Below, piece by piece: positions 3,325 to 21,140 of a DNA stretch of 29,344 nucleotides. The stretch is taken from IMG/VR virus record IMGVR_UViG_3300006919_000287, positions 1-29,344 of that record, one strand, 5' to 3'. The translations under genes and the position numbers were made by a program. This DNA comes from a virus. Position 1 is the first letter of the stretch, and the number at the start of each line of letters is the position of its first letter. Under the pieces are notes generated by a model, which worked only from the letters and a program-made list of their open reading frames with translations, searched no databases and had not been told where the DNA came from.

Positions 3325-3668
3325 AATATTATGTAGTCATTATCAAAACTGTTCTCTGTGGTATATTCACCCTCATTAACAGAGTAATAGTCATTTGTTT
3401 CTTGGTCAATATCCTGATCTGTGCAAAATATTTTATCTCTATATACGATCTCTCCTGATATTTCTATCCTGAAATCATAATATCTACCCTCTGTTAAAGA
3501 GAAACTATGCTCTAGGCTCATATATTCACCTGTCTTGCCCAAAGAAACTACATTACTTGTCTCTGTATTTGTACTGTCATCTCTCAAAATTAATGTACCG
3601 TCTAATCCATAGGATCTTGGTATCATTAGTATTGTCTGAGGATCTGTACTTGTAGTTAAGTGTTTCAT
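3321..3668 (-). CDS. Hypothetical structural-region protein, 115 aa
   Basis: I do not recognise a named family. The sequence is polar and beta-rich (GTLILRDDSTNTE, LTEGRYYDFRIEISGEIVYRDKIFCT), with an acidic Asn/Tyr/Glu-rich tail. It lies between the tail tube gene and the portal gene and overlaps the portal start by 4 bases. The gene follows a terminator and is immediately preceded by the ACGTTATAT motif, so it is probably the first gene of the portal transcription unit. Small beta proteins here often are head or tail completion factors. That is inference only. Confidence 0.6.
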   Translation of the reverse strand: MKHLTTSTDPQTILMIPRSYGLDGTLILRDDSTNTETSNVVSLGKTGEYMSLEHSFSLTEGRYYDFRIEISGEIVYRDKIFCTDQDIDQETNDYYSVNEGEYTTENSFDNDYIIL

Positions 3669-3672
3669 ATAT

Positions 3673-3701
3673 ATATAACGTAATAAATTCCCATTTTTGT
3701 A
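3673..3701 (-). promoter_or_regulatory. ACGTTATAT motif, candidate late promoter 1
   Basis: Read on the minus strand, TACAAAA at 3701-3695 is followed 13 bases later by ACGTTATAT (3681-3673), which runs almost into the ATG at 3668. It lies just after a terminator, where a new promoter is needed. The same bipartite pattern occurs at 7760-7788 and 16370-16399. Confidence 0.55.
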
Positions 3702-3709
3702 CTTAAAAC

Positions 3710-3739
3710 AAAAAAAAACCCCACCGATTATGGTAGGGT
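3710..3739 (-). terminator. Rho-independent terminator after tail tube gene
   Basis: On the minus strand an 8-bp stem (ACCCTACC/GGTGGGGT, one G-T pair) with a 6-base loop is followed by a run of nine T. It sits 28 bases after the tail tube stop codon. Confidence 0.85.
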
Positions 3740-3766
3740 CTATTTTATAGAACGATATTATCCTAA

Positions 3767-4282
3767 TTAAGCAGTAGGATCAATGTCAGTTCCACCTGTA
3801 GTAGGAGCATCACAAAAGAAAGGCGGTGCAGTCTCCTGAGCAGTTAATGTCAATGTAAATCCCGAAAGATCTCCCATTGCAGCACCGGTTACTATTGTAC
3901 CTCCTGAAACTTCTGCTCCGTGGTCTTTACCTACTAAGAAAAAGTTTCCATTGTTATCTTCAATCACTACCTGAGGTCTCCCTGCAGCTAATAATTTAAT
4001 CTCTTCCTGAGTTGCACTATCTAAGAAAGTGAATGTTGCATTTAAAGTAGATTCGTAGAAAGTAGTACCATTCTCACGAGATGAGTTGATAGCAGTCTCT
4101 AAACTAGAATTTCCTTTAATTTCATATTTGTAGAATGTCTCTGTATCGTCAAAGGTAATAACCCCTGCACTCGGTGATAAGGCAGCAATATCTGCATCGT
4201 AATTTGAGAAGTAGATGTTTTTAAGTCCACCTACTGCACTCTTACAAGGCAATACTCTCCCTTTTGCTATTGAACAAGCCAT
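3767..4282 (-). CDS. Probable major tail tube protein, 171 aa
   Basis: The size and beta-rich sequence fit a siphovirus tail tube subunit. Supporting pieces are SSRENGTTFYESTLNATFTF, a helix with QEEIKLLAAGRPQVV, then EDNNGNFFLVG and GDLSGFTLTLTAQE. This order (strand pair, helix, 'DNNG' hairpin, 'G.tltl..qE' strand) is seen in several tail tube proteins of Bacteroidota phages and the wider gpV-like fold. The gene stands alone between two strong terminators, next to the capsid gene, as expected of a second highly expressed virion protein. A head decoration protein is the main alternative. Confidence 0.6.
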   Translation of the reverse strand: MACSIAKGRVLPCKSAVGGLKNIYFSNYDADIAALSPSAGVITFDDTETFYKYEIKGNSSLETAINSSRENGTTFYESTLNATFTFLDSATQEEIKLLAAGRPQVVIEDNNGNFFLVGKDHGAEVSGGTIVTGAAMGDLSGFTLTLTAQETAPPFFCDAPTTGGTDIDPTA

Positions 4283-4307
4283 ATATTTAAGGTTTTTTTA
4301 GATTAAT

Positions 4308-4351
4308 AAAAAAAGGGCAGGCAGGTCTTATATGGACTTACCTACCCCTTT
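4308..4351 (-). terminator. Strong terminator after major capsid gene
   Basis: On the minus strand a 17-bp stem with one mismatch (GGGGTAGGTAAGTC pairing with GACCTGCCTGCCC, extended by A-T pairs) closes a 7-base loop and runs into a T tract. It is the strongest hairpin I found in the window and starts 18 bases after the capsid stop. Confidence 0.9.
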
Positions 4352-4368
4352 AGTTTGTTTATTTTAGA

Positions 4369-5304
4369 TTATGCAGGTGTGTAAAGAACGATATCGCTTC
4401 CGATTCCGTACTCAACTCCACTTGTAAAGCGCATTATCACACGAACATTTTGAGATCCGTCAAGGTCTCCCATATCTAGGACTTTAACCTCGTTGTGGTC
4501 AGAAAGTAATCCTGTTCCGAAAAATAAGTTAGATTTCTCAGCAGCTACCATATAATTGTCAGCTAATCCATTTGCAACAAAGATTTTTACACCATCAAAA
4601 GATAATGCTCCGTTGTTCCACCATTGAGTTCCTTCGTTGTTTACACCATTTGCACCTAATCCTGCAGCAGCGAATCCTCCTAATGCTCTTACATAGGCTC
4701 TAGCTACGTTTTGAGATACATATAAGTAAAGATCTTCTTTTCCGTATAATGCAGATGGAATAGCATCTACTACTTTGCCCATCTCAGCGATTACGTTAGT
4801 AGCGTTAACTGTTGTTCCAACAACATCAATTACAGTAGCATCAGCAGTCATTTTAGTAACTAATCCATCAAATTCACCTGCATTAGCATTAACACCTTTC
4901 CAAATGTTGTTTTCAGTTTTCTCAGCAACTAATCCTGCAACGTGTGCAACTAAGAAATCAGAGAAAGCAGGAGGTAAAGAATCAAATGCAGATACACCCA
5001 TTTGTACGGCTTCCCAATCTGATCTGAAGTCTTTTTTACATAATTCAAGGTTCACTTGGAACTCCTCTGGTTGTAAGATTCTCTCAGTTAATGTTACTTC
5101 AGCAGTATCTGTGAAATCACAAGATCCGTCTTTGATTACGTTAGCATCAGTAGCCATCTTTTTGATAACCTCTTTGTACTTAACGTTTGGTTTAATAGTG
5201 ATACCTCCATTGTTTAGGGTAGCACCTGATAATAATGCTGCAGCGATATATTCTCTCGAAAATTCACCAGCATATGTAGTTGTAATGTCAGTAGTTGTAG
5301 CCAT
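4369..5304 (-). CDS. Major capsid protein, 311 aa
   Basis: The length, position after the scaffold gene and sequence fit a HK97-fold capsid protein. The start is Thr/Ala-rich (MATTTDITTTYAGEF) and is followed by segments typical of these proteins: KPNVKYKEVIKKM, the conserved LTERILQPEEFQVNLELCKK stretch, a helix ending WEAVQMGVSAFDSLPPAFSD (spine-helix region), and late beta strands SFDGVKIFVANGLADNYMV and VRVIMRFTSGVEYGIGSDIV. No long N-terminal delta domain is present, in line with a separate scaffold gene. A very strong terminator follows, and no clear promoter lies in the 19-base gap upstream. It should be the most abundant virion protein. Confidence 0.85.
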   Translation of the reverse strand: MATTTDITTTYAGEFSREYIAAALLSGATLNNGGITIKPNVKYKEVIKKMATDANVIKDGSCDFTDTAEVTLTERILQPEEFQVNLELCKKDFRSDWEAVQMGVSAFDSLPPAFSDFLVAHVAGLVAEKTENNIWKGVNANAGEFDGLVTKMTADATVIDVVGTTVNATNVIAEMGKVVDAIPSALYGKEDLYLYVSQNVARAYVRALGGFAAAGLGANGVNNEGTQWWNNGALSFDGVKIFVANGLADNYMVAAEKSNLFFGTGLLSDHNEVKVLDMGDLDGSQNVRVIMRFTSGVEYGIGSDIVLYTPA

Positions 5305-5323
5305 TTTTTAAATGTTTTTTTAT

Positions 5324-5941
5324 TTATTTTTTAATGTTTGCAATTCTTGCGAATACTGTGTCTCTTGTAGACATTGGTCTGTTTTTTCCTAATACCATTT
5401 TCTTGGTCTCACTTCCTGCTTCAGGACTATGCTTTAAAGGTTGAGCAGCAGGCTGAGAAGATAATTCCTCTTTTACTTGTTCCTCAACTTCTTTCTGAGT
5501 AGATAATTGAGTTTTTAACTCGGCAATCTCATTCTGTAATTTCTCAATTTCGCTAAAGAAAGTTTCCTTGCTTACTGATTCGATTACTTTTTTAGGTTGA
5601 GATACCTCAGCTTCCGCTTCAACTTCTACCTCTTCGTTAGATGCTTCCTCTTCCATAGGTGCATCCATTTCTTTGATCTCTTTAATGATACCCTCAGCTT
5701 CCACAACTAAGATCATTCCATCCTCTAAAGAATATTCACCAACAGGTAAGGCAATTCTGTCCTCTTCTGTTACGATAAATACTTCAGCTTCAGGAGTAAA
5801 CTCTTCTGCTTCGATAATAGTACCATTCTCTAGGGTCATTTGAGCCAATTTGATTTCCTGTACAGTATCTTGTACATCCTCTGATAACTCAATCCCTAGT
5901 ACGCTTTTGATTTCTTTTAGCATTTCTAATGGATTTTTCAT
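5324..5941 (-). CDS. Probable head scaffolding protein, 205 aa
   Basis: This acidic, low-complexity protein sits directly upstream of the capsid gene. Residues 1-85 hold a small beta domain with the pattern TLENGTIIEAEEF...VFIVTEEDRIALPVGEYSLEDG. Residues 90-115 are almost all Glu/Ala/Val. Residues 125-165 form a coiled coil (FFSEIEKLQNEIAELKTQL). The end is basic with a few Lys/Arg (NRPMSTRDTVFARI). Acidic coiled-coil body with a basic capsid-binding tail is the usual design of scaffolds, which fill the procapsid and are removed by the protease (6751-7755). The small beta domain is often found beside XkdF-like proteases (from memory). Confidence 0.7.
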   Translation of the reverse strand: MKNPLEMLKEIKSVLGIELSEDVQDTVQEIKLAQMTLENGTIIEAEEFTPEAEVFIVTEEDRIALPVGEYSLEDGMILVVEAEGIIKEIKEMDAPMEEEASNEEVEVEAEAEVSQPKKVIESVSKETFFSEIEKLQNEIAELKTQLSTQKEVEEQVKEELSSQPAAQPLKHSPEAGSETKKMVLGKNRPMSTRDTVFARIANIKK

Positions 5942-5945
5942 ATTT

Positions 5946-5954
5946 ATATAACGG
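5946..5954 (-). promoter_or_regulatory. CCGTTATAT variant of the repeated motif, site 2
   Basis: CCGTTATAT on the minus strand ends 4 bases before the scaffold start codon at 5941. It differs from the other four copies in the first base, and the upstream TACNAAA element is not at the usual distance. Confidence 0.4.
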
Positions 5955-5982
5955 TTAATAATTATTATTTTGCATTTTCGTA

Positions 5983-6132
5983 TTAACTTTTTCTGTAAAT
6001 ACTACCAATTCCCTGAGCCCATAGTGATCCATCGCAACAATCTCTAGAATAAGTATTGGTTTCTTTACAGTAACACGCTCTAGAACTTCCTTTAGGACTT
6101 GTGTAACTCGGTATCTTGTCATCTTTAAGCAT
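5983..6132 (-). CDS. Cys-rich small virion-region protein, 49 aa
   Basis: The frame opens at ATG 6132, inside the last codons of the upstream gene (8-base overlap), and ends at TAA 5983-5985. The protein begins MLKDDKIPSYTSPKG and contains RACYC, then SRDCCDGSLWAQGIGSIY. A longer frame on the same strand (5955-6206) covers this place but overlaps the upstream gene by 82 bases and has no sensible composition. The 49-residue frame fits the gene spacing and carries four cysteines (residues 20, 22, 32, 33). I recall similar CxC...CCDGSLxAQGIG proteins in other Bacteroidota phages, always near head genes. Function unknown; metal binding or a virion clamp is possible. Confidence 0.7.
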   Translation of the reverse strand: MLKDDKIPSYTSPKGSSRACYCKETNTYSRDCCDGSLWAQGIGSIYRKS

Positions 6133-6751
6133 AACTCTGTGTTTTTTGTATAAAGTAAACTATATCCCATATCTGAGCAGCACCGCCTGTTGCTACAATT
6201 TTCCAATTAGATCCATTATCTACAAAGTTTTGATCTGCATAGTATTGGAATACTTGGTGGAACTCGTGTGCTACGTCATTACCTTTTGGAAATGGTATAT
6301 CTACTCCTACTCTCTCATATGGAGTTCCATTTGTAGCATCTAACTGTAACCTCAAATATGTCTGATTAGCGTTAGGTGCTGAACACTTAAAAACAATAGT
6401 CATTAAATAAACATCATTTAGATTGTCTGCTAATACTTTCCTAGTAGATCCATTGTAATAATCTATTCCCTCGTAACTTCTATAAACACTTGCAGCATTG
6501 TTTGGCATCTCAATAGATATATCAGCCGCTAAAGTCAATTTGCTAGCCTCTGTGAAAGCACCATCATCATATCTAGTCCATCCTAATCCTGATCCTGCTC
6601 CTGACTGAGGATGTAATTTAATCCACTCTCCATTGTACACAGTCCATACTCCTGATTCAGTAGTTACGAACGCTCCCTCTTCAATCTTGTAGCTATTTCT
6701 GATCTGATCAGTATCTACATCTACCTGTACTTTATATGATGTATTTCTCAT
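6125..6751 (-). CDS. Beta-rich virion protein, possibly head fibre or decoration, 208 aa
   Basis: No family recognised with certainty. Residues 1-60 hold short beta strands (NTSYKVQVDVDTDQI, GVWTVYNGEWIKLHP). From about residue 75 a jelly-roll-like domain follows (LAADISIEMPNNAASVYRSY, LMTIVFKCSAPN, VGVDIPFPKGND, WDIVYFIQKT). That domain type is common in short head fibres and base-plate decorations. It lies between the protease and scaffold genes and is linked to both by overlaps (TAATG at 6751, 8-base overlap at 6132), so it is likely made with the head proteins. A minor tail protein is an alternative. Confidence 0.6.
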   Translation of the reverse strand: MRNTSYKVQVDVDTDQIRNSYKIEEGAFVTTESGVWTVYNGEWIKLHPQSGAGSGLGWTRYDDGAFTEASKLTLAADISIEMPNNAASVYRSYEGIDYYNGSTRKVLADNLNDVYLMTIVFKCSAPNANQTYLRLQLDATNGTPYERVGVDIPFPKGNDVAHEFHQVFQYYADQNFVDNGSNWKIVATGGAAQIWDIVYFIQKTQSYA

Positions 6752-7755
6752 TATTTCTCAGGTACACAATTAGGCACTCTTTTACCATTTTTTTCTTTCC
6801 ATCCAATCTGCTCGTATCCATCCCAACAAGGCTCCTTAAGTTCTAGGTCTATCTCTTTTAATTTACCTATTGCCCAATTAACTCCTGCAGATCCTCCCCA
6901 AGCATCCCACATTAAACCACCACAACCCTCTGAGTAAGGAACATCTTTATGTTGTTGGTGTCTCTTAAAACTTGCCATCCTTGCAATCGTGTCTCTACTG
7001 ATAGGTTCTCCTTTTGCTAATTGATTTGCTCTAGCCTTTCCTGTAGCCTCTCCACAAGTTCCCCATCCATTTTTTTCTACCCAATCCAATGCTCTCTGCG
7101 CATTATTCTTAGCACCCTCAGGATAGTCAGAGTAGGATTCTAATTCAACCTCACTAAAAAGGTCTTTTAATTTGTCTATAATTAATTTAGCCTCTTGCTC
7201 TTCCTGAGACATTGCAACCGATTCCTTAGGTCTTTCCATTTTATCAGCAAAGTAACCCTCGATAGAAAATCCTTTGACCTTTCCTGTTTTTACATAATCA
7301 TTCCAGACTTCCTCGTTATTCACTTTTACTGCTCCCATCCAAGTACCTAAGGGTACATTCATTCCATACTTTCTACTCTTATCGTGTACCTCATCCTCTA
7401 CTAACCAACTCTCGACAAGTGACAATCCTTTCAGATCGTATTGATGTTCCATAGTAGAATTGTTCTGATTCCCATTCACTAGGTACATTTGAGACGCTTT
7501 TGCGACAGTTTCTTTAGAGAAATATATATAATACTCATCCTCACCTGATCTGCGATATATAGGCTTGTTAGGTATTAATAAAGCACCCATTAAAATACGT
7601 TTCTCTTTATTAACTTCAGCGAGTTTGATCTCTTCACTCTTTAAAGCGACAAAATCCTCCTCTATTGCAGGGTTTTCCACTACTGAGATAGCCTCAACTC
7701 CTGTCATTTCCTGATCCTCATCTAAAATGAGTTCTATAATCTTAAAATTGCTCAT
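6751..7755 (-). CDS. XkdF-like prohead protease with appended C-terminal modules, 334 aa
   Basis: Residues 1-185 match the XkdF-like putative serine protease type: an opening strand with GVEAISVVENPAIEEDFVAL, STMEHQYDLKGLSLVESWLV and KGFSIEGYFADK. His104 and Ser164 are plausible catalytic residues. It should trim scaffold during head maturation. Residues 208-300 add a second module (YPEGAKNNAQRALDW, NGWGTCGEATGKARANQLA, ISRDTIARMASFKRHQQ, EGCGGLMWDAWGG). The last 28 residues form a CW-x-GYEQIGW...GKRVPNCVP motif that I have seen at the ends of other phage virion proteins. These extras are unusual for a protease and might bind the capsid or act after assembly. The ACGTTATAT motif precedes the start. 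Confidence 0.75.
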   Translation of the reverse strand: MSNFKIIELILDEDQEMTGVEAISVVENPAIEEDFVALKSEEIKLAEVNKEKRILMGALLIPNKPIYRRSGEDEYYIYFSKETVAKASQMYLVNGNQNNSTMEHQYDLKGLSLVESWLVEDEVHDKSRKYGMNVPLGTWMGAVKVNNEEVWNDYVKTGKVKGFSIEGYFADKMERPKESVAMSQEEQEAKLIIDKLKDLFSEVELESYSDYPEGAKNNAQRALDWVEKNGWGTCGEATGKARANQLAKGEPISRDTIARMASFKRHQQHKDVPYSEGCGGLMWDAWGGSAGVNWAIGKLKEIDLELKEPCWDGYEQIGWKEKNGKRVPNCVPEK

Positions 7756-7759
7756 ATTA

Positions 7760-7788
7760 ATATAACGTATAAAACTTTAAATTTTGTA
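7760..7788 (-). promoter_or_regulatory. ACGTTATAT motif, candidate late promoter 3
   Basis: On the minus strand TACAAAA (7788-7782), 13 bases, then ACGTTATAT (7768-7760), 5 bases before the start codon of the protease gene. Spacing is identical to the site at 3673-3701. It fills nearly all of the 35-base gap after the tape measure gene. Confidence 0.55.
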
Positions 7789-7790
7789 TT

Positions 7791-9473
7791 TTAAATTGAT
7801 GCACTCGATACAATATTTCTCTCTAGACTTTGAGCAGTAGTAACATCACTAGAAACAACGTATGCTTTTACAGGCTGATTATTCTTACTTGCTATTGTCT
7901 CTGCTAATTGATTAGTACCTCCTGCTCCTACTATATTAAAACTTGGTGCTTGTGGTTCTGCTACTCCTCTACCGCCTGTAATAGTTCCACCTACTGTTGC
8001 ACCCTGAGGAGATCCACCTGTTTTTAATGCACTTAATCCTTTTGCAGTTGCCGCTACGTTAGCTGCTATTCCAATTCCTGCACTTATATTATTTGCAGTT
8101 TGTTCTGCTTTTGCTAATGCGATACCTCCAGGTATTAAAGCATATTTTAATGCTGCTGCCGCATTTGCTGCCTTAGTATTAATAATAATTTTAGCAACTC
8201 CAATAGCACTCTCTCCTAATAAAGCTGCTGCTTGTAAAGCCTTATTTTTACCTGCTAACTGTCCTAATAAAGCAAAACCTGCTGCTGCATTGTTTAAATT
8301 AGCATCTCTAATAGAGGCTTCTGCATCTGCTACAAACTGAGCGATAGCCACTTTTTGATTTGCTTCATATTGTAACCTAGCTAATCCATCTTTCATATCC
8401 TTGTCAGCTTTGGCTTTATTATCCTCGTCTTCTTTTATCTTAGCATCTTTTTGTGCTTTTTTTCTATTAGCCTCGTCTGTCTCTAATTGTTTAGCAAAAG
8501 CATTTGCCTCAGCATCTCTTGTTTTTCTCAAAGCCATCTCCTCATTGTATAATCCTAAGATCTGACTTGTAACCTCTCTTTGTTTTGATAATCTAGCAGT
8601 CTCTAGTGCAATAACATTAGCTTGTAATTCTGCTTCTGCTTCAAGATCCTCCTGAGTAGATCCACTTAATGAGTTTTGTAATATCTGAGCATCGAGTTTC
8701 TTTTGTGCTAATTCTATCTCTTTATTAGTAATGTCCTCTTCAATTTTTGATGCTTGTTGTAAGAATCCAATTCTCTCCTCTGCGGTAAATTTCTCCTTAT
8801 TTACGGCTTGTTCTAATAATCTTGCTCTATCTTGATCTGCCTGCGCTCTCTCTACTTTAAGTTGTCTCTCCATCTTAGCAGCATCTGCTAACATATTTGA
8901 AATCTCTGCAGCTATCTTTAATTCCTCTCTTGTCTCTTTATTGAAATTTTTAGCTTTTTCTGTGAATCCTGAGAAAGCCTCACCAACTGAATCAATAGCA
9001 CCTTTAAAATCTCCTGCAAATACTTTAGTAATAGCATCACCCAATGAGAGCAATCCATTTCCAAATTCTGCTGCTAGATCTTTTAAGTTTCCAAATACAA
9101 CTCCAATCTGTCCTAATATCTTATTAAGTTTATTAGAACCCTCCTCTGTTGATGTAAAAGCAGAAATTAATGATCCAACTACCACAACAAAAGCACCAAT
9201 ACCTGTGGCAATTAATGCACCTTTCATAGTTTTAAGACCTGTAACCGCACCTTTAATAGAGGTAATCATTCCTTTAAAACCTGAGATAGCACCCCCTGTT
9301 AGCTTATCTGCAGCTGAGGTAAGTTCATCAAAATTATCCTCTACCTTTTTAGATCCCTCAGATACATCCTCTAATCTATCATTAGTTTGTGCTAGATCTT
9401 TATTTAAAGCCTCTACATTCTGTTGTGCTTTATCTGTTTCGACAAGTAATGTAACTACTCTTGTTTCCGCCAT
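7791..9473 (-). CDS. Tape measure protein, 560 aa
   Basis: This sets tail length and is ejected with the DNA. Features seen: an N-terminal coiled coil (residues 15-60), a Gly/Ala-rich section with a hydrophobic segment (IATGIGAFVVVVGSLISAF, about 88-106), a long charged coiled coil (about 170-400, many Lys/Glu/Ala), a second Ala-rich hydrophobic region (395-480) and a Gly/Thr-rich end. This order is typical of tape measures. At 560 residues it is short and would predict a tail of roughly 80 nm using the usual 1.5 Angstrom per residue rule. The gene follows the tail-tip gene instead of preceding it, which is unusual. Confidence 0.85.
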   Translation of the reverse strand: MAETRVVTLLVETDKAQQNVEALNKDLAQTNDRLEDVSEGSKKVEDNFDELTSAADKLTGGAISGFKGMITSIKGAVTGLKTMKGALIATGIGAFVVVVGSLISAFTSTEEGSNKLNKILGQIGVVFGNLKDLAAEFGNGLLSLGDAITKVFAGDFKGAIDSVGEAFSGFTEKAKNFNKETREELKIAAEISNMLADAAKMERQLKVERAQADQDRARLLEQAVNKEKFTAEERIGFLQQASKIEEDITNKEIELAQKKLDAQILQNSLSGSTQEDLEAEAELQANVIALETARLSKQREVTSQILGLYNEEMALRKTRDAEANAFAKQLETDEANRKKAQKDAKIKEDEDNKAKADKDMKDGLARLQYEANQKVAIAQFVADAEASIRDANLNNAAAGFALLGQLAGKNKALQAAALLGESAIGVAKIIINTKAANAAAALKYALIPGGIALAKAEQTANNISAGIGIAANVAATAKGLSALKTGGSPQGATVGGTITGGRGVAEPQAPSFNIVGAGGTNQLAETIASKNNQPVKAYVVSSDVTTAQSLERNIVSSASI

Positions 9474-9604
9474 CTTATTTCTGTTTTTATTTGATTAAAT
9501 GCTCCCTTTATGTTTTTAGGTAAATAGTATTTTCCCTGAGCAATCCTGATATTTTCAGTCTCTCCTTTTACTCTTCCTAATATGTTAAAAATACTTTCTA
9601 GCAT
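9455..9604 (-). CDS. Small hypothetical tail-module protein, 49 aa
   Basis: ATG at 9604 lies 3 bases after the tail-tip stop, and the TAG at 9455-9457 lies inside the tape measure gene (19-base overlap). The sequence begins MLESIFNILGRVKGETENI and ends basic (KTEIRWRKQE). It fills a 134-base gap exactly, which supports a real gene. No family recognised. A small chaperone or tip component for tape measure loading would fit the place. Confidence 0.6.
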   Translation of the reverse strand: MLESIFNILGRVKGETENIRIAQGKYYLPKNIKGAFNQIKTEIRWRKQE

Positions 9605-9607
9605 AAT

Positions 9608-13714: not shown

Positions 13715-14635
13715 CTATCTAATGTTATTTATGTAATCATACGCATATTTAAACTCTATAGTGTAATTGATTAGCTTGTCATTAAGATGTGTTTTTCTTG
13801 TTTGGTCTGTTGTTACTATTGTCAATGGTATTATCTCTCCTCCTATATCTCCCCATATGTAAGCAGATAAAGTAAGCTGATTAATTACCTTATCAAATGC
13901 TTCTCCTACGAATCCTGTGTTCATTGTAATACTCTCTGTTGAGCTAAAGTTCTTATTGTAACTTTGATGTCTAGTAGTGCTATAAGAACCATCTATGCCT
14001 ATTATATTACGCTTGTAGTTCTCTGAGGTGCTAGTATATTTCTGCACGTTCTTTTTGTCAAAGTATATATCTTGAAATGCTCCAAACTTGTTTACGAATG
14101 TCACTTTTATTGGAGTGTACTTAGGGTCACAAGTTCTTTTTATGATAATTGATTCCCCTGCAACAGTAGCTGAGGTAGCACTTGTGTTAAAAGACTGATA
14201 TATAATCTCTCCCTCATCTATGTAAGGTATATACCCTGCTACTCCCTCAGGAACGTACATAGTATTGTTTGACTGCATCAGACTCTCATCTGTTATAATC
14301 TTGTTCTTGCCCTCTTTAAAAGTACTATACCCCTCTAAACCTATGTGGTTAAATTGTCTTTGTAGACCTACTGTACTTCCTCCTCCATTTTTGCCTGTGT
14401 AGAAATTAACAACTCCTGATATTACCACCACTTGACTTGTGTAAGTGCCATCATATGTAAGGTCTAAGTAATCTGCTACAAGTTCGGAGATCTCAAACAA
14501 TACGCTTGTACCTACAGTATCTTTTATAATAGTGTATTCTAAATTACCATTAACGCTCAATTCTAACTTTGCAGATAGAGCAGTAGCTTCTGAATCGCTA
14601 AAGTAAAAAGGACTTCTAATTAATATATTTGCCAT
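13715..14635 (-). CDS. Distal-tail-like/baseplate protein, 306 aa
   Basis: The N-terminus (MANILIRSPFYFSDSE) followed by LSAKLELSVNGN and FEISELVADYLDL is a pattern I associate with tail proteins placed before the large tip protein in Bacteroidota phages. The body is beta-rich throughout. The role as distal tail (Dit-like) ring is inferred from size, fold impression and its position directly before the tip gene. It shares the low GATC content of that gene, so the two probably travel as one block. Confidence 0.5.
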   Translation of the reverse strand: MANILIRSPFYFSDSEATALSAKLELSVNGNLEYTIIKDTVGTSVLFEISELVADYLDLTYDGTYTSQVVVISGVVNFYTGKNGGGSTVGLQRQFNHIGLEGYSTFKEGKNKIITDESLMQSNNTMYVPEGVAGYIPYIDEGEIIYQSFNTSATSATVAGESIIIKRTCDPKYTPIKVTFVNKFGAFQDIYFDKKNVQKYTSTSENYKRNIIGIDGSYSTTRHQSYNKNFSSTESITMNTGFVGEAFDKVINQLTLSAYIWGDIGGEIIPLTIVTTDQTRKTHLNDKLINYTIEFKYAYDYINNIR

Positions 14636-14644
14636 AATCTTATG

Positions 14645-15160
14645 TTATCTCTTTGTAGTAAAATCTAATAAATCGTCTATGTCTAATCCAAAGTTTTTTA
14701 TTAAGTCATCTGGTAATTTCTTGAATGCTTGCTCAAAAGGTTTAGTAAAAAACAAAGAGGGTTTTATCCCTTTCTCATATATGCTCCTCTGTAATATAAA
14801 TCCTATGCTTCTGTAATTACCTTTCTTATATCTCCCTTTCTCATCTCTCAGTCTGATCCTCTTTGCTTTTGCCCAATCTGCTAGTGGTTGCATTGGAGGT
14901 TTCTTATTAGTGTAACTGTAAGGTGTATTGTATTTCATTTTAATACCTGATACCCCTTTATCCACAAATGCACCATACTCTTCCATTATGAATCCTAAAG
15001 AGAAAGAGTTAGGCATTACCTTTAAATCGTAATCTAAGCTATTATAGAGACTGCTAGAGACATTCTTTTTGTTTTTTGATAGTCTACTCCTAGATTGTTG
15101 TATAACGAACTTAGCGAACGTATTTAAGGCTCTATTTGTATTTTGTAATTTAGCAGACAT
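14645..15160 (-). CDS. HK97 gp10-like neck/tail completion protein, 171 aa
   Basis: The gene encodes a basic protein whose order of motifs fits the gp10-like family: a helical N-terminus, then FIMEEYGAFVDKGVSG, a stretch PMQPLADWAKAKRIRLRD, and near the end IYEKGIKPSLFFTKPFEQAF. The YG..VDkG and kPS.Ff..a pieces are the family's core. Such proteins join the completed head to the tail. It overlaps the upstream gene by 11 bases. Confidence 0.65.
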   Translation of the reverse strand: MSAKLQNTNRALNTFAKFVIQQSRSRLSKNKKNVSSSLYNSLDYDLKVMPNSFSLGFIMEEYGAFVDKGVSGIKMKYNTPYSYTNKKPPMQPLADWAKAKRIRLRDEKGRYKKGNYRSIGFILQRSIYEKGIKPSLFFTKPFEQAFKKLPDDLIKNFGLDIDDLLDFTTKR

Positions 15161-15620
15161 TAATATCGTTTTGAATTATTACATCAAACGTAGCGGTCCA
15201 CCCTGCGACCTGATTCTCAAATCTATCCATAAAAGGCTCTAGAGTAACATCTCCTAACACCTGATATAAGTCTCTATGTAATTGACCAATTCTTAGTTTC
15301 TGTACTAACTTATTTAAAACTGCTAATTGAGTATTCAATACATCTTGCTCATTGTCATTTCCTAAGAATATATCAGATACCGGATCCTTTGATTGATCTA
15401 CAATATCCATTGCTAGAATACTGATATTAAATCCAAGTGTATTCTCTGAGGATGTTACATTGTTTACAATCATATGAGACAAAGGGAATATAGTCTGCTT
15501 ATTAAGATCCACCTCTGTAATATCTCCTGTCGTAACTGTATTTACGTTTAGATCAGATAGCAAAGTGTCTTTTATCTTTTCAGTGAGTAAATAAAACCCT
15601 CTTATTCCTGTATTGCTCAT
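15150..15620 (-). CDS. Probable tail terminator/tail completion protein, 156 aa
   Basis: The layout (a long N-terminal helix IRGFYLLTEKIKDTLLSDL, then strands around FPLSHMIVNNV and LGFNISILAMDIV, a helix QLAVLNKLVQKL and a last strand GWTATFDVIIQ) resembles the alpha/beta fold of tail terminator proteins. These cap the tail tube and meet the neck. The ATG at 15620 overlaps the stop of the -1 frame of the upstream chaperone gene (TAATG), which ties its translation to the frameshift product. Confidence 0.55.
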   Translation of the reverse strand: MSNTGIRGFYLLTEKIKDTLLSDLNVNTVTTGDITEVDLNKQTIFPLSHMIVNNVTSSENTLGFNISILAMDIVDQSKDPVSDIFLGNDNEQDVLNTQLAVLNKLVQKLRIGQLHRDLYQVLGDVTLEPFMDRFENQVAGWTATFDVIIQNDINVC

Positions 15621-15871
15621 TATAGTTTGTTTTTAATCTTTCTGCTTTCTAATTCGTTTTTCTCCTTTTCAAATGCTAACATCATAAAACACTCGTGTAC
15701 ATTTAGTTTAGTGATATTCTCAAATCGTCTAATATCGCCCTGAGCGAGTGCGTAAATTGATTGATACCAACCCCATTTTGCTCCGAACTGAGATATTGCA
15801 CTAAATTGCTCTCCTGATTCTCCTCCAAATAATTCATCATAGCTTGCGATAAGTCGATCCCTAAATGGTAA
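15620..15871 (-). CDS. -1 frame extension of tail assembly chaperone (gpGT-like)
   Basis: Downstream of the T9 run the -1 frame is open for 83 codons to TAA at 15620-15622. It codes for FGAKWGWYQSIYALAQGDIR, then FENITKLNVHECFMMLAFEK and a Lys/Glu-rich end. The KWGWY...LAxGDI...VTKL pattern is typical of second-domain tail chaperones in Bacteroidota phages (from memory). There is no usable ATG near its start, so it must be reached by frameshifting. If ribosomes slip at the T run the fusion would have 244 residues (161 + 83). It would bind the tape measure during tail assembly, like lambda gpGT. Confidence 0.75.
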   Translation of the reverse strand, partial: LPFRDRLIASYDELFGGESGEQFSAISQFGAKWGWYQSIYALAQGDIRRFENITKLNVHECFMMLAFEKEKNELESRKIKNKL

Positions 15872-16353
15872 AAAAAAAGTATAGAACCTATTACTGCATC
15901 TAAAGGCATATCTTTCATTGTCTCTCCATCTCCTGCTTCATACTCTTTAATAGAATATTTCTCTCCGTATTTCTGATCAATAGGTCTATATAGAACTGCC
16001 ATTGCTCTGTGCATATTCTCCCAATCTCCTAAGAACGCATCTAGATCTACATACTCTCCTAAGCTGATGTCATCGAGTTTTGGTATAAATCCATACTCTA
16101 CCCCATTAATTTTAAAATGTCTCCTTAGATTCGGTTTCTCATTAAACATACCTATCAGGATCTCACATATAGCATTAACATCTGCAAACTTCATTCTCAT
16201 AGTATCTGCTAAAGTAACATTGCAAAATATTTCGATCATCTTAGATGCTAGGAATTTCTCATCTGTAACCTCTTCTGAGATCTTTAAATACTTTTGGTAC
16301 TGCTCTAATGTAATCTCTGATAATGTATCAGGTATGGTAATTTCTAGTTTCAT
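15703..16353 (-). CDS. Tail assembly chaperone, 0-frame product (gpG-like), 216 aa
   Basis: Starts MKLEITIPDTLSEITLEQYQ and continues with helical segments, including INGVEYGFIPKLDDISLGEY and a Met/Leu-rich part up to ILFFYHLGIDL. This matches the first chaperone of siphovirus tail modules: right size, right place before the tail proteins, and it carries a frameshift signal. The 0 frame continues 55 codons after the slip site and ends at TAA 15703-15705. The alternative frame gives a second product (15620-15871). A candidate promoter motif (16370-16399) and a terminator lie upstream, so this is the first gene of the tail unit. Confidence 0.7.
   Translation of the reverse strand: MKLEITIPDTLSEITLEQYQKYLKISEEVTDEKFLASKMIEIFCNVTLADTMRMKFADVNAICEILIGMFNEKPNLRRHFKINGVEYGFIPKLDDISLGEYVDLDAFLGDWENMHRAMAVLYRPIDQKYGEKYSIKEYEAGDGETMKDMPLDAVIGSILFFYHLGIDLSQAMMNYLEENQESNLVQYLSSEQNGVGINQFTHSLRAILDDLRISLN
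15870..15879 (-). other. Frameshift site: C followed by nine T
   Basis: The minus strand reads CTT TTT TTT TAC in the 0 frame. Slipping back one base on TTT-TTT gives TTA CCA and enters the open -1 frame. A T9 run could also act by polymerase slippage, since one extra T has the same effect. In the first 20 bases downstream I see no obvious strong stem or pseudoknot. Confidence 0.65.
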
Positions 16354-16369
16354 ATGCTTGGTATTATAT

Positions 16370-16399
16370 ATATAACGTAATTTTTAAGGCATTTTAGTA
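16370..16399 (-). promoter_or_regulatory. ACGTTATAT motif, candidate late promoter 4
   Basis: On the minus strand TACTAAA (16399-16393), 14 bases, then ACGTTATAT (16378-16370). It lies between the terminator at 16407-16435 and the tail chaperone ATG at 16353. Here the distance to the ATG is longer (16 bases) than at the other sites, which fits a transcription signal better than a translation signal. Confidence 0.55.
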
Positions 16400-16406
16400 A
16401 ATATAC

Positions 16407-16435
16407 AAAAAAAAAGCACCCATCTCTGAGTGCCT
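16407..16435 (-). terminator. Rho-independent terminator before tail unit
   Basis: On the minus strand an 8-bp stem (AGGCACTC/GGGTGCTT with G-T pairs) around a 6-base loop is followed by a run of nine T. It closes the small-gene unit that ends at 16460. Confidence 0.8.
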
Positions 16436-16459
16436 CTTCTTACTAACTATAAAAACATA

Positions 16460-16573
16460 CTAATTCAACCATCCTGTAATTGCGTTAAAAAACATTAAGG
16501 CTATTCCTATCACTGAGTAAAAACTAATCAAATAGTAAATATTCTCAGGGTCTTTCTTTATCCAATCTCTCAT
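16460..16573 (-). CDS. Small single-pass membrane protein, 37 aa
   Basis: ATG at 16573 is 3 bases after the upstream stop (TAAGATATG). The charged start (MRDWIKKDPEN) is followed by one hydrophobic segment (IYYLISFYSVIGIALMFF, about residues 12-29) and a short end. The charge pattern suggests the N-terminus stays in the cytoplasm. No family recognised. A small membrane protein in this place might act in superinfection exclusion or lysis timing, which is a guess. Confidence 0.6.
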   Translation of the reverse strand: MRDWIKKDPENIYYLISFYSVIGIALMFFNAITGWLN

Positions 16574-16576
16574 ATC

Positions 16577-16798
16577 TTATTTATTTATTTCATATTCCAT
16601 TATCTCAGTCTCTGCTCTATTAAGAACATAAGTAGAAAGTAAATCTGTAAGATCTATATCTGATCCCTCTAGTGCTATGTGTAATATCTCCACCTGATCC
16701 CCTGTAGGTGGTTCAAAGTAATCTCCATTACTACCCTCAATAAAATCGTATTGAATCTCTAAAATAATGTCGTCAATTTCAATCTCGTACTGTCTCAT
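16577..16798 (-). CDS. Acidic hypothetical protein, 73 aa
   Basis: Small acidic protein with alternating charged and aliphatic residues (YEIEIDDIILEIQYDFIEG), then an acidic stretch with FEPPTGDQVEILHIALEGSD. This suggests a compact alpha/beta fold. I do not recognise it. It has its own Bacteroidota-type promoter at 16839-16869 and is followed by the small membrane protein gene. Confidence 0.65.
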   Translation of the reverse strand: MRQYEIEIDDIILEIQYDFIEGSNGDYFEPPTGDQVEILHIALEGSDIDLTDLLSTYVLNRAETEIMEYEINK

Positions 16799-16838
16799 AA
16801 TAGTGTCTTTTAAAGTGTCTGTTTTAATTAATAATGCT

Positions 16839-16869
16839 CAAATATATAAAGCATATTTCAGTTATGAAA
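16839..16869 (-). promoter_or_regulatory. Bacteroidota-type promoter (TTTC-N19-TATATTTG)
   Basis: On the minus strand TTTC (16869-16866), 19 bases, then TATATTTG (16846-16839). The consensus for the primary sigma factor of Bacteroidota is TTTG-N19-21-TAnnTTTG, so only one of the eight fixed bases differs. Transcription would start about 35 bases ahead of the ATG at 16798. Confidence 0.6.
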
Positions 16870-16874
16870 GTATT

Positions 16875-17114
16875 TTAATATCTTTTTTTGAAATTTTTTA
16901 ATTTTAAGTATCTTTCTACGTATGCCTCTTTGAGCATTAACATAGTGTCCTCATCAAACCATTTATAAAACATAGAGAAATCAATTTCAAAATATGTTAT
17001 AGAATGTTTTCCTCTTAAAAGATCTGTTGTCTTTGTCTCAATATAAAACTTTCCATTGTCTTGTGTAGATCCTACTGATATAATATCTAAAATCTCAAAT
17101 TCTTTATGTTCCAT
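16875..17114 (-). CDS. Hypothetical protein, 79 aa
   Basis: Two-part small protein: a beta-rich first half (FEILDIISVGSTQDNGKFYI) and a second half that is mostly helix ending basic (AYVERYLKLKNFKKRY). No family recognised. It begins 1 base after the stop of the upstream gene (TAAGATG), so the two are surely co-translated. Confidence 0.6.
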   Translation of the reverse strand: MEHKEFEILDIISVGSTQDNGKFYIETKTTDLLRGKHSITYFEIDFSMFYKWFDEDTMLMLKEAYVERYLKLKNFKKRY

Positions 17115-17115
17115 C

Positions 17116-17337
17116 TTAATCCTCTTTTAAATGATCTAATATCTCGTGGTAATTTACTGCATCGATAAAAGCTAGTGCATAATCTTGTGCTAATCCATTA
17201 TCTGTTTGCTCTCTGATATGTTCCTCTAGCATCTCCTGTAATGTTTCTGCATCCCATTCATCCTCTATCTCCATAAACTCAAAAAATTCTAAATACACTC
17301 TCCAAGTCTGATAATTTGTCCATCCATTGTAACTCAT
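17116..17337 (-). CDS. NGWTNYQTW-type phage protein, 73 aa
   Basis: The start MSYNGWTNYQTWRVYLEFFE is the hallmark of a small phage family found in many hosts (often listed as DUF7249-like, from memory), followed by an acidic helix and a C-terminal helix (ALAFIDAVNYHEILDHL). No biochemical function is known to me. A nearly perfect host-type promoter (17367-17397) stands 30 bases upstream, so it is the first gene of the small-gene unit. Confidence 0.7.
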   Translation of the reverse strand: MSYNGWTNYQTWRVYLEFFEFMEIEDEWDAETLQEMLEEHIREQTDNGLAQDYALAFIDAVNYHEILDHLKED

Positions 17338-17366
17338 AATTGTCTTTTTAAATAATTAATAACACC

Positions 17367-17397
17367 CAAAAATACAGAGCCTAAATTAAACTGACAA
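17367..17397 (-). promoter_or_regulatory. Bacteroidota-type promoter (TTG-N20-TATTTTTG)
   Basis: On the minus strand TTG (17397-17395), 20 bases, TATTTTTG (17374-17367). All fixed bases of TAnnTTTG match. It lies in the gap after the terminase gene and would drive the four small genes down to the terminator at 16407-16435. Confidence 0.7.
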
Positions 17398-17426
17398 GCA
17401 TTTTATTAAATTTTTTTAATTATTTT

Positions 17427-18581
17427 TTATCTAATAGCATATTTACCATAATTAGGCTTAGTAAGTTTATTTACTATTGAATACCTGAGACTATCTAGAG
17501 CGTGATTGTAAGCATCTATTGGTTTGTTAGTAAGCTGACCATTTTTGTCCTCTATGTATTTATAGTTTCTCAACTCTTTGATCGTATTAATACTATCCTC
17601 TGTAACGAATAGTTTGTATCTCCTGATCATATCAATACCGATATTAATAGATCCTTTAAAAGTGGGCTTTATATTCCATCCCATTCTATGTATCTCTTCT
17701 ATTGATTTCGGTTCTGCTGAGTCTGCAAATATCTCATCTCTTCTGTCAAGTCCTAATCTCTTAAATTCATTTGCTATATCCTGATTAGTCATCCCTGTTC
17801 GATATATATGCTCCTTTACGTACATATTATCTCCCATTGTAAATGTCTCCACTAAACTAGTAGGGTCGTTAGTAAATCCAAAGTCTAATCCGTACGATAT
17901 TCTTTTTGCTTCCTGAGGGATCTCTTTAATAGTTTGAAAGTTATATATTAAACTCCTAGACTGTCCTCTCTCTCCTAGTCCGTAAACTTTCCAATAGTTT
18001 TCGTCAATATCTTTTAATCTCTCAATCTCTTCCTTTATTACATCACTTAAAAACGGATTGTCTCTATATGTTGTTTGGTGAAATTCTACATCTGCTCTTG
18101 TTAAGACCTGATCATATATCCAATGAAACTCATCAGAGGGATTGTAATCAAGTACAACCTTCTCAGTAGTCCTGAATATTAACTGCTGCCAATCCTCATA
18201 ATTAAGTTCGTTAGCTTCATTAATAAATAACAAATCTCGCTTCCTACCTCTAATCTTTTGAGGCTCATCTAGACTTATAAATTCAATTCTATTGCCGTTC
18301 AGATAATACTCACTAGCACTCTTGCTATGATACATCTCATTATAAATACCATATCCTTTGATAATATCAAAAAAATCCCTCATAACAGTACCTCGTACCG
18401 CAGGGAATGTCTTTCTGCATATCGTAATAGTTTTATCAGTAGATCTATTGCAATAATCGAATATAATCCATAATAGTATGTTATAGGTTTTCCCTGATCT
18501 AGTTCCTCCCTGTTCTACTATTATCTTTTTATCAGATCTTGCTAAGTGTTTAAATACTTTATTCGTCGTAACTTCCCTCAT
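17427..18581 (-). CDS. terL: Terminase large subunit, 384 aa
   Basis: ATP-driven DNA packaging motor and nuclease. The ATPase half shows Walker A GGTRSGKT (residues 25-32), a RKTFPAVRGTV segment, and Walker B LLFINEANEL (about 116-125). The nuclease half shows YGLDFGFTNDP (first catalytic Asp), IFADSAEP (second) and DAYNHALDSLRY (third). The layout matches the Terminase_3/PBSX-type family. At 384 residues it is slightly short but holds all motifs. It overlaps the small subunit gene by 23 bases. Confidence 0.93.
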   Translation of the reverse strand: MREVTTNKVFKHLARSDKKIIVEQGGTRSGKTYNILLWIIFDYCNRSTDKTITICRKTFPAVRGTVMRDFFDIIKGYGIYNEMYHSKSASEYYLNGNRIEFISLDEPQKIRGRKRDLLFINEANELNYEDWQQLIFRTTEKVVLDYNPSDEFHWIYDQVLTRADVEFHQTTYRDNPFLSDVIKEEIERLKDIDENYWKVYGLGERGQSRSLIYNFQTIKEIPQEAKRISYGLDFGFTNDPTSLVETFTMGDNMYVKEHIYRTGMTNQDIANEFKRLGLDRRDEIFADSAEPKSIEEIHRMGWNIKPTFKGSINIGIDMIRRYKLFVTEDSINTIKELRNYKYIEDKNGQLTNKPIDAYNHALDSLRYSIVNKLTKPNYGKYAIR

Positions 18582-18915
18582 CTATGATTTTGACTTGAAA
18601 CAATCTTTCGCCTTCTGCACCTGTTATCTCTTGTCTCTCTATATATCCTCTCTTTTTTCCCTTAGTCTTTAAATAGAATATTGTTGCTGAGGTACTCCCA
18701 TCTCCTATTTGTTTATGTAATTGGCTCTCTGCAAAATCTAATGCTACATTCTGTATCTCTGCTACCTCTTTAGCAAATACAGGATCTTTATCTAGCCACT
18801 CATAAAATGTTGCTCTACCTATTCCCACTTGTTTACAGGCAGTCGTTACAACTCCTAGGCTCTTCTCTAAAGCCTGAATCATTGCATCCTTTTTTATATG
18901 TCCGGTTTTGTCCAT
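18559..18915 (-). CDS. terS: Terminase small subunit, 118 aa
   Basis: Residues 8-50 form a helix-turn-helix (ALEKSLGVVTTACKQVGIGR, then FYEWLDKDPVF) as in small terminase subunits that recognise the packaging start. A coiled-coil/oligomerisation part follows (residues 50-85), with KQIGDGSTSATIFYLKTKGK, a line common in this family. The end is acidic and probably meets the large subunit. The start overlaps the stop of the glycosyltransferase gene (TAATG), and the gene overlaps terL. Confidence 0.85.
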   Translation of the reverse strand: MDKTGHIKKDAMIQALEKSLGVVTTACKQVGIGRATFYEWLDKDPVFAKEVAEIQNVALDFAESQLHKQIGDGSTSATIFYLKTKGKKRGYIERQEITGAEGERLFQVKIIDEGSYDE

Positions 18916-19655
18916 TATATTCCTTTAATTGGTGTTTTCATAATCGGATTAAAGTCAAAACTTCTCTTGCTTTGTTTATCTCTTTTAATCACATCTTTAC
19001 CCCATTTTCTCTGTAACGCAAAGAATTGTTGTTTCTCTTTATCTAAGTTTCTATATGTCGCACATCCACCCTCCTGTTCTGCTTGTTTCACATTATAGTG
19101 TGCAAAGTTTACTCTTAAGCATCCTTTGTATTTATGTATATGTTGTAATGTAATATCGTAATCCTCCTTTAATGGTAATTCCTCATCATATCTCACTTCG
19201 CTACTTTTTAAATGAGCCTGAAAAGGTCCTCCTATATATTGTAAAGTACCAAATGGGGTATATTCTCTATATGCACCTTTATCTGTTACACAATTTAATC
19301 CCCAAAAATGGAAGCCCATCTCTTTAGTTATATTAGCTATGTTCTCAGAAAATTCCTCTAAGTCATTCATATTGAATTTAATTTGAGATTGCTCTTCCCA
19401 TCTACCAATATATGAACAGTCGTCATCAATAATAACAATACAATCTGCATCATCGTATAAATTATCTAATATCCAATTCCTTACCCTACATAAATTTCCC
19501 TGAGCTGAATCAGGACATACTACAATATCATTCCCATTTGCTCTATACTCTTCTGCTTCACTCTCTCTTACTACTAGCTTTACGTTAGGATAATGTATCT
19601 GTGTTATACTCTTCTCTGGTCTCTTATAAGATGGTGCAAAAAATTTAACTTTCAT
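18915..19655 (-). CDS. GREB1/TAGT-like glycosyltransferase, 246 aa
   Basis: The protein looks like a GT-A-fold glycosyltransferase of the GREB1/TAGT group, which comparative genomics has linked to sugars on modified DNA bases in phages. Seen: KFFAPSYKRPEKSITQI at the N-terminus, VVCPDSAQGNLCRVRNWIL, IVIIDDDCSYIGRW with the acidic metal-binding triad at 77-79, FWGLNCVTDKGAYREYTPF, IGGPFQAHLK, LPLKEDYDITLQHI and a conserved end RSFDFNPIMKTPIKG. All parts of the fold are present. It overlaps the ParB-like gene by 11 bases and follows a PAPS-reductase-like gene, which supports a joint role in DNA modification. Protein or RNA targets are not excluded. Confidence 0.75.
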   Translation of the reverse strand: MKVKFFAPSYKRPEKSITQIHYPNVKLVVRESEAEEYRANGNDIVVCPDSAQGNLCRVRNWILDNLYDDADCIVIIDDDCSYIGRWEEQSQIKFNMNDLEEFSENIANITKEMGFHFWGLNCVTDKGAYREYTPFGTLQYIGGPFQAHLKSSEVRYDEELPLKEDYDITLQHIHKYKGCLRVNFAHYNVKQAEQEGGCATYRNLDKEKQQFFALQRKWGKDVIKRDKQSKRSFDFNPIMKTPIKGI

Positions 19656-20262
19656 TCTGTATCTTGTTTATTGCTTCTGTTCCATTTATTACTCTTCCAA
19701 TTCCTTGGCTCCAGGGTTTTCCATTTGCTCTTTTTGCAGTCTCTGTTTTTAATCCAAATAATGTTTTAGCTTGAATCCAATCTATATCTGTATCAAATTT
19801 TAATATAAGATAATTACTCTGAGTATCTAGTTCAGTAGCAAAAGGTTTTTCGCTCTGTTCATTCATTGGGTTATTCATTTCCTGCACATCGTCATCTGTG
19901 TAAGGCACATCTAATCCCCACTCTCCTAGTTTATCCTGATCCCAATTATTTGCTAATATATCCCAATCCCACTCTCCAAATCCTGAATTGTCTTTAATTA
20001 AGAACTCCTTTTGCTGATCATCTGACAAATCTTTTGCTTTTATGATATAAACCTCATCTATTCTAGCATCTTGACAAGCCTTATATCTCATATTTCCTCC
20101 TAAGATAACATTGTCCTCATTTACTACAATAGGTCTAATCTCTAGCATCTCAGGAAATTCCTTTATACTTTTGACTAACTTCTTAAATTTATAGTCTTTA
20201 ATGATTCTAGGGTTATCAGGATTGATCCTAATATCTCCGATTTTTACTTTAGTGATCTGCAT
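19645..20262 (-). CDS. ParB-like nuclease-domain protein, 205 aa
   Basis: Residues 1-95 carry a ParB/sulfiredoxin-type fold: KIGDIRINPDNPRI, LVKSIKEFPEMLEIRPIVV, VILGGNMRYKA with the GGNMR motif at 55-59, and LIKDNSGFGEWDWDILA. The second part (YLILKFDTDIDWIQAK, LFGLKTETA) is a separate alpha/beta domain often seen in phage ParB proteins. I chose ATG 20262 over one 42 bases upstream because the protein then begins at the domain boundary and the ACGTTATAT motif ends at the start codon. ParB-fold proteins of this type bind CTP/ATP or cut DNA. Paired with a PAPS-reductase-like gene it recalls the IbrA/IbrB arrangement. Confidence 0.78.
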   Translation of the reverse strand: MQITKVKIGDIRINPDNPRIIKDYKFKKLVKSIKEFPEMLEIRPIVVNEDNVILGGNMRYKACQDARIDEVYIIKAKDLSDDQQKEFLIKDNSGFGEWDWDILANNWDQDKLGEWGLDVPYTDDDVQEMNNPMNEQSEKPFATELDTQSNYLILKFDTDIDWIQAKTLFGLKTETAKRANGKPWSQGIGRVINGTEAINKIQNES

Positions 20263-20271
20263 ATATAACGT
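20263..20271 (-). promoter_or_regulatory. ACGTTATAT motif, site 5, ahead of ParB-like gene
   Basis: ACGTTATAT on the minus strand directly abuts the ATG at 20262. A TATAAAA element lies 18 bases upstream in place of TACNAAA. It would place the ParB/glycosyltransferase/terminase genes under the same control as the structural genes. Confidence 0.45.
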
Positions 20272-20291: not shown

Positions 20292-21140
20292 TTATAGTCC
20301 ACAATAACCTGAATCACACTCATTAAAATCATCATCAAATAATTCAAATTGTGAGTTCCAATTTTTTATCTCATCATAACTAATGTCTGTCATCCATTGA
20401 GCATTGTTTACACTCTCTCTTTCTCTTTTAGCAAACCATTCTAACTTATTTGGATGCTTATCCCACATCTTTCTAAGTAACATTGGAGACTTATGGAAGC
20501 AACCTACACAGTTATTCATCCAAGCAAATCTAACAGGCTTATCTAACCAAAACTGTTCTATGGTATCTTTATATATATTAGAGTCTATTAGAGGAAAGCT
20601 AGGTTTCTGATATGGTATATCCTCCCATTTGTTTCTACCGTCTTTGTGTTTTCCGAATGTTGCTTTAAATTCACTAAGACCATCAGCATTGCATCTTTCT
20701 AACATATTCTTAGCTCTCCTAGTTTCATTGGCTCTGAATCCTATTCTCATTTCAATAGGTTCTCCTATCTGTTTAGCCCACCAATAAAAAATAGGTTCTA
20801 TTTTCATTTCTACTGTGCAAAACCTTTGAACCTTATTAGGCAAATAAACTTTATCTTTTCTAGTCGTTATATCGTCAAAAGTTTTTCCTGTAACCCAAGT
20901 AATCTTTCTACCTATAAATTGCTCTAAGTCTAACATAGTATAAACAATCATATCATCCTCAGCAGTTCCTATAAAAGGTGCTTGTATTCTATCCTCTATC
21001 TCTTGTCTTATTTTCTTATCAGGAAAAATACAATTTTTATCTTCAATTCTTACCAAAGAAAAAACATCATAGTCTGCAGGATAGTTAGCTGCAATATAGC
21101 TTGAAGTTTTACCTCCACTCAAACTATTTACTGTTTTCAT
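20292..21140 (-). CDS. PAPS-reductase-family PP-loop protein, 282 aa
   Basis: The N-terminus holds a PP-loop (SGGKTS, residues 8-13) as in ATP pyrophosphatases that adenylate or thiolate a substrate. Further family marks are RFCTVEMKIEPI (Cys108), MRIGFRANETRRA and WMNNCVGCFHKSPMLLRKM (Cys211, Cys214). Cys275 and Cys280 lie near the end (CDSGYCGL). The cysteines could hold an Fe-S cluster, as in DndC or some PAPS reductases. Phage members are thought to act in DNA or tRNA modification, not in sulphate assimilation, as no other sulphur genes are present. It overlaps the DnaA-like gene by 17 bases. Confidence 0.8.
   Translation of the reverse strand: MKTVNSLSGGKTSSYIAANYPADYDVFSLVRIEDKNCIFPDKKIRQEIEDRIQAPFIGTAEDDMIVYTMLDLEQFIGRKITWVTGKTFDDITTRKDKVYLPNKVQRFCTVEMKIEPIFYWWAKQIGEPIEMRIGFRANETRRAKNMLERCNADGLSEFKATFGKHKDGRNKWEDIPYQKPSFPLIDSNIYKDTIEQFWLDKPVRFAWMNNCVGCFHKSPMLLRKMWDKHPNKLEWFAKRERESVNNAQWMTDISYDEIKNWNSQFELFDDDFNECDSGYCGL

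Follow-up and report, generated by a model that had tools for sequence, protein, structure and literature searches.

The window, i.e., the whole stretch of DNA analysed here, is a 29,344-nt fragment of a tailed phage (IMG/VR record IMGVR_UViG_3300006919_000287), and all of its identified genes are carried on the minus strand. Scans against PHROGs and Pfam revealed a portal, a protease, a scaffold-like protein, TerS, TerL, a helicase and a recombination exonuclease. The product of 4369-5304, which is similar to PHROG virion structural proteins, we take to be the major capsid protein (MCP). A likely DNA-modification cassette is present at 18915-20262 (minus strand), where a ParB-like gene (19645-20262) is followed by a TET-associated glycosyltransferase gene (Pfam TAGT, 2e-11); the phosphoadenosine-phosphosulfate-reductase-like gene at 20292-21140, directly upstream of the ParB-like gene, likely belongs to it as well. 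The nearest isolates are the Nonlabens phages P12024S/L (portal about 41% identical), and a blastn search of the region against a phage collection gave no matches.

Within this window the motif ACGTTATAT occurs in four exact copies, all on the minus strand and without any further copy, and a variant, CCGTTATAT, is found on the same strand. All five lie on the coding strand shortly ahead of start codons. The copy at 3673-3681 (CGTT at 3680-3677) precedes gene 3321-3668 and the portal gene, and carries TACAAA upstream at 3696-3701. The variant at 5946-5954 precedes the scaffold-like gene (5324-5941) and has TGCAAA at 5969-5974, the same spacing as that of TACNAAA at the other copies. The copy at 7760-7768 lies ahead of the capsid protease gene (6751-7755), with TACAAA at 7783-7788, and the copy at 16370-16378 ahead of gene 15703-16353, with the variant TACTAAA at 16393-16399. 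The fifth copy, at 20263-20271, is atypical; it lies ahead of the ParB-like gene, followed by the TAGT glycosyltransferase, TerS and TerL genes, and has no clear -35 element. Intrinsic terminators are located directly upstream of two copies on the same strand, at 3716-3741 for the 3673 copy and at 16408-16441 for the 16370 copy.

Most of this had been described in the initial annotation, and the four copies with their variant, the TACNAAA upstream of three of them (3673, 7760 and 16370), the two rho-independent terminators and the lack of a full host TAnnTTTG box at the copies all held. Its range of 0-5 bases between motif and ATG, stated for most copies, had to be corrected for 16370, which sits 16 nt from its ATG. 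A housekeeping promoter was rejected, since TAnnTTTG is not above chance in the window and is absent just ahead of the motif-bearing ATGs.

The four exact copies of ACGTTATAT compare with a mean of 0.28 in dinucleotide shuffles of the window, none of which reached four. If one mismatch is allowed, the number of matches in the window is not above chance; therefore, the significance resides in the exact core and its position.

Conservation of a bipartite element in related phages

Related loci were collected via portal and terminase (160 loci) as well as via the sigma protein described below (80 loci), comprising IMG/VR loci and the isolate P12024S. In these loci and in the Nonlabens phage, ACGTTATAT is the right half of a bipartite element, TRCAAA-N15-CGTTATAT. 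The layout of TRCAAA, 15 nt, CGTTATAT, 4 nt and ATG is present before the orthologues of gene 3321, the protease gene, gene 5324 and gene 15703, and is kept in dozens of divergent loci, including those in which the proteins share only 35-50% identity. The gap from CAAA to CGTT is exactly 15 nt in 38 of 65 sites, and the copies at gene 15703 have a looser -35. Late-gene units headed by the element are those of the terminase, gene 15703, the protease, the scaffold-like gene and the portal, and the non-head genes checked in the relatives (MCP, TerS and g13715) usually lack the motif. Together, the sites of the window head nested units, which span the morphogenesis genes between 16.4 kb and the portal gene.

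A scoring matrix was built from the sites of the relatives only, leaving out those of the window. Applied to the window, it gave 24-26.7 bits for the four sites at 3673, 5946, 7760 and 16370, 15.1 for the ParB copy and 8.8 for the next site, at a null maximum of 12.7. Furthermore, when ATG-anchored words were counted de novo in clade A, CGTTAT(A) at -12 ranked first.

The -10 box differs between clades, being CGTT in 50/56 sites of clade A, TATT in 16/20 of clade B and CTAT in 9/9 of clade C, and within clades B and C it changed together at all three sites (genes) tested. In group D the sigma protein is very divergent, although TerL is still about 75% identical. Here, ATG-anchored CGTTATA was found once in 378 kb, in comparison to 54 times in 346 kb of clade A, and a de novo search of this group did not yield a clear ATG-anchored motif. 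In three group D loci (L100, L102 and L126) the gene at the position of g15703 is preceded by AATATATTTATAAGT-ATG, a sequence similar to the host -7 box (TAnnTTT) and spaced so that the transcript would be nearly leaderless.

The promoter-like architecture and its conservation at this gene set are thereby shown. That ACGTTATAT represents the -10 region of a phage-specific late promoter, TRCAAA-N15-CGTTATAT, with the geometry of ECF sigma promoters is strongly supported by the sequences, whereas the late timing is inferred. A phage-specific late promoter had already been suggested in the initial annotation, and the bipartite structure, the deep conservation at the same genes, the position after terminators and the phage-encoded ECF sigma all speak strongly for it. 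Those outcomes named there as refuting this suggestion that are open to computation were not seen.

A phage-encoded ECF-type sigma factor

The proposed reader of these promoters is encoded at 24673-25155 (minus strand). Its ORF was called mechanically from a GTG at 25185, and its homologues begin at the ATG at 25155 (MEILE or MEVLE); therefore, the gene encodes a protein of 160 aa (MEILEILFKKHQDW...), which is filed as unknown in PHROGs (phrog_31712). Searching a profile of this protein against PDB chains gave ECF sigmas as the best full-length matches (SigE, SigL and others, E 7.8e-6). Sigma70_r2 was found in 22 of 32 homologues, the window protein alone remaining below the Pfam cut-off. The structure model (pLDDT 88.5) displays two helical domains, residues 1-81 and 97-160, with sigma2 and sigma4 folds and a linker between them, and among the solved structures, its nearest fold matches are nearly all ECF sigmas. 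Its sigma4 domain matches SigmaE bound to -35 DNA with an rmsd of 1.4 over 64 residues. The presence of only sigma2 and sigma4 with a linker of under about 50 residues meets the ECF criterion. No relative of the protein was found in cellular genomes by a pattern scan.

Hallmarks of the studied ECFs are a CGT-containing -10 box and an AAC-containing -35 box (PMC8103513). The first is met by CGTT at -12 to -9 in the clade A sites. The -35 element TRCAAA is without the AAC, which is common in ECF promoters but not obligatory. The matrix scan of the window revealed no such promoter before the sigma gene itself, and the criterion of autoregulation is not met; FecI-like ECFs also lack positive autoregulation (cited with the hallmarks in PMC8103513). 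Among the neighboring proteins scanned, which did not include all small ORFs, no anti-sigma domain was noticed. These three points count against the model proposed below, as does the atypical ParB copy.

By its domain make-up, its homology and the -10 box, the product of 24673-25155 is an ECF-type sigma factor, as shown by sequence homology and the modelled fold. It shares with bacterial ECFs (SigH, SigL and SigE of M. tuberculosis, SigmaE of E. coli) the restriction to sigma2 and sigma4 and the full-length match in profile and fold, and its putative promoters share GTT at -11 to -9 and a rigid spacing between -35 and -10. In contrast to these, it is phage-encoded, the -35 is TRCAAA, and neither a promoter of this type before its own gene nor an anti-sigma was recognized.

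The linkage of this gene to the phages is likewise shown, since it is encoded in 26/26 loci which contain both helicase and terminase, about half of them fetched by the sigma search itself and the others not. The sigmas of clades B and C differ in region 2, for example by D to Q in the LFLDLKRK stretch, which is only suggestive with one sequence each. Because of the CGT-type -10 box, the constant linkage, the joint switch of this box at three genes in clades B and C and its near-absence in group D, it is inferred that the phage sigma reads these sites. We regard this as almost certain, yet there are no sigma-DNA binding or genetic data. A single-subunit phage RNA polymerase as reader was rejected, as the scans of window proteins against PHROGs and Pfam showed none.

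Alternatively, a host sigma, either a Bacteroidota ECF or the housekeeping factor, might read the promoters. Bacteroidota hosts carry many ECF sigmas, and the missing binding data for the phage protein leave room for this possibility. However, within phage sub-clades several sites have switched their -10 box together, every locus with the right span encodes the phage sigma, the motif is missing from group D, whose sigma is divergent, and TAnnTTTG does not occur just ahead of these genes. A host sigma is therefore an unlikely reader, and the phage protein remains the preferred one.

Transcription start and the copy at the ParB-like gene

Of 84 non-redundant sites, 58 have CGTT 8 nt before the ATG. 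Where the ATG lies at another distance, the signals for transcription and translation are uncoupled. In 17/23 of such sites, a pyrimidine-purine step is present at positions 8/9 after CGTT, against 39/208 (19%) for the offsets 9/10 to 21/22 taken together; the binomial p is about 2e-7 if the background is set to 22%. Since sites from related phages are not independent, p values are optimistic.

If +1 is the A of the ATG, the box reads C-12 G-11 T-10 T-9 and TRCAAA lies at -33 to -28. Promoters of M. tuberculosis SigH carry G-11 T-10 T-9 and a GGAAYA -35 at -34 to -29 (PMC6411747). From both the initiator at 8/9 and the SigH register, sites of the main class are predicted to start at the A of the ATG and thus to give a leaderless mRNA. 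The predicted +1 positions are the A of the ATG at 3668, 5941 and 7755, and 16365 for gene 15703, which would carry a 12-nt leader. The paper on SigL numbers the -10 box slightly differently (PMC6372665), and as the numbering varies among ECF papers, the predicted start may be off by a base or two.

It is likely that most of these mRNAs are leaderless and start at the A of the ATG. This is predicted from sequence alone, without RNA 5' ends, and the earlier proposal of leaderless or near-leaderless transcripts is supported to the same extent, by the fixed 8-nt spacing, the initiator kept when the ATG moves and the ECF register. In F. johnsoniae, the leader exceeds 10 nt in 87% of the predicted transcripts (PMC6847099); therefore, leaderless late mRNAs would be out of the ordinary for this phylum.

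It is also possible that the same promoter and phage sigma are used with a start a few nt up- or downstream, resulting in very short leaders. ECF start distances are known to vary by a base or two, and for some copies a leader of 1-20 nt is evident. Against this, the initiator dinucleotide is pinned at 8/9 after CGTT at other ATG positions and the SigH register places +1 on the A. The motif might further be a translation signal or an mRNA binding site by the start codon, as the nearly fixed distance of 8 nt from CGTT to ATG would allow. This alternative, which had been raised at the outset, is disfavored and very unlikely: copies at other ATG distances retain the -35, the -10 and the initiator at 8/9, the spacing of 15 nt to the upstream block is fixed, copies lie after terminators, where a promoter is needed, and most non-head genes lack the motif.

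The copy at 20263 does not fit this picture as easily as the other four. Its predicted +1 (20258) falls inside codon 2. In other genomes the distance from CGTT to the ATG of ParB is 8 nt in some, and 0, 4 or 6 nt in several others, where the RNA would start inside the ORF. In L131 and L103, CGTT abuts the ParB ATG, yet T8/A9 are present, and therefore the predicted start falls within the ParB ORF. A site, CGTTATATA, with a longer leader is also present before a TerS-like start in L222 (7546), L242 (5044), L211 (10698), L213 (4709) and L253 (6928). The TerS-like start is MDKRKNNGGARDGAGRPKK in three of these five loci, and a similar downstream stretch (TTGAATAAACAA) follows the site in all five.

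The copy may be a chance occurrence or a decayed remnant and not a working promoter. This would fit to its weak -35, to the predicted start inside the ORF and to the absence or displacement of the motif before ParB in many relatives. On the contrary, it is conserved in close relatives, full copies at 8 nt precede ParB in L110, L124, L155 and L161, and several other genomes carry a copy before TerS, so that we lean slightly against a remnant. The simplest reading, albeit unproven, is that the ParB-side promoter serves the terminase genes and that ParB is made from other transcripts. The assignment of the promoters to modification genes, also suggested before, is thus weaker, the copy at the ParB and glycosyltransferase genes being atypical and more likely serving the terminase genes.

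A proposed late-transcription switch and known systems

In the proposed mechanism, the two-domain ECF-type sigma would be made from the early/middle region of the phage and join the host RNA polymerase. The sigma-bound polymerase would be directed to the TRCAAA-N15-CGTTATAT promoters heading the morphogenesis transcription units, transcription would begin at the A of the ATG in most copies, and the first late gene of each unit would be translated from a leaderless mRNA. This model as a whole is likely, its sigma-site pairing, exact start and late timing being inferred. In a bolder reading, a whole lineage of marine Bacteroidota siphoviruses launches virion production from leaderless mRNAs via its own ECF sigma, each late unit being transcribed from the AUG of its first gene onwards, in hosts with mostly leadered mRNAs of their own, and sigma and -10 box co-diverge between sub-clades as natural orthogonal pairs. 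The balance tips only slightly in favor of this reading.

Phage sigmas such as gp55 of T4 and gp28/gp34 of SPO1 redirect the host polymerase to short phage-specific middle/late promoters (PMC9429907). The role inferred here is the same, without any claim of homology; in contrast to these, the window sigma belongs to the two-domain ECF type, its proposed promoter is bipartite with CGTT, and transcription apparently starts on the AUG. In Actinobacteria and Deinococcus, leaderless genes carry a -10 box some 10-12 nt ahead of their start codon (PMC3160421), and in the phage, too, the distance between -10 and ATG is short and fixed. However, theirs is the housekeeping TAnnnT box, whereas here an ECF-type box of a phage regulon is found in a phylum with mostly leadered transcripts. 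An ECF sigma driving phage late promoters was not found described in the literature searched, of which the coverage is incomplete.

The isolate P12024S (NC_018271; L165/L264) encodes a homologue of the window sigma, gp33 (27% identity), whose annotation mentions nothing beyond Sigma-70 region 2. Ahead of gp01, gp05, gp08, gp35, gp41, gp44 and gp45, at the heads of virion and terminase operons, there are seven elements resembling AAACAAA...CGTTAA (CGTTAC at gp01), six of them at exactly 8 nt. Their -10 mostly continues with AATA, in comparison to ATAT in the window. The elements are not annotated as promoters in the record, and no description of them was found. With this isolate, the promoter/sigma model becomes testable in culture.

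The analysis offers a concrete late-transcription switch for an abundant and little-studied group of marine Bacteroidota phages and assigns a function to the unknown family phrog_31712. Natural sigma-promoter pairs with altered specificity are on offer as well. If the leaderless reading is true, these phages would represent a simple system for ribosome initiation on leaderless messages in a phylum without Shine-Dalgarno sites.
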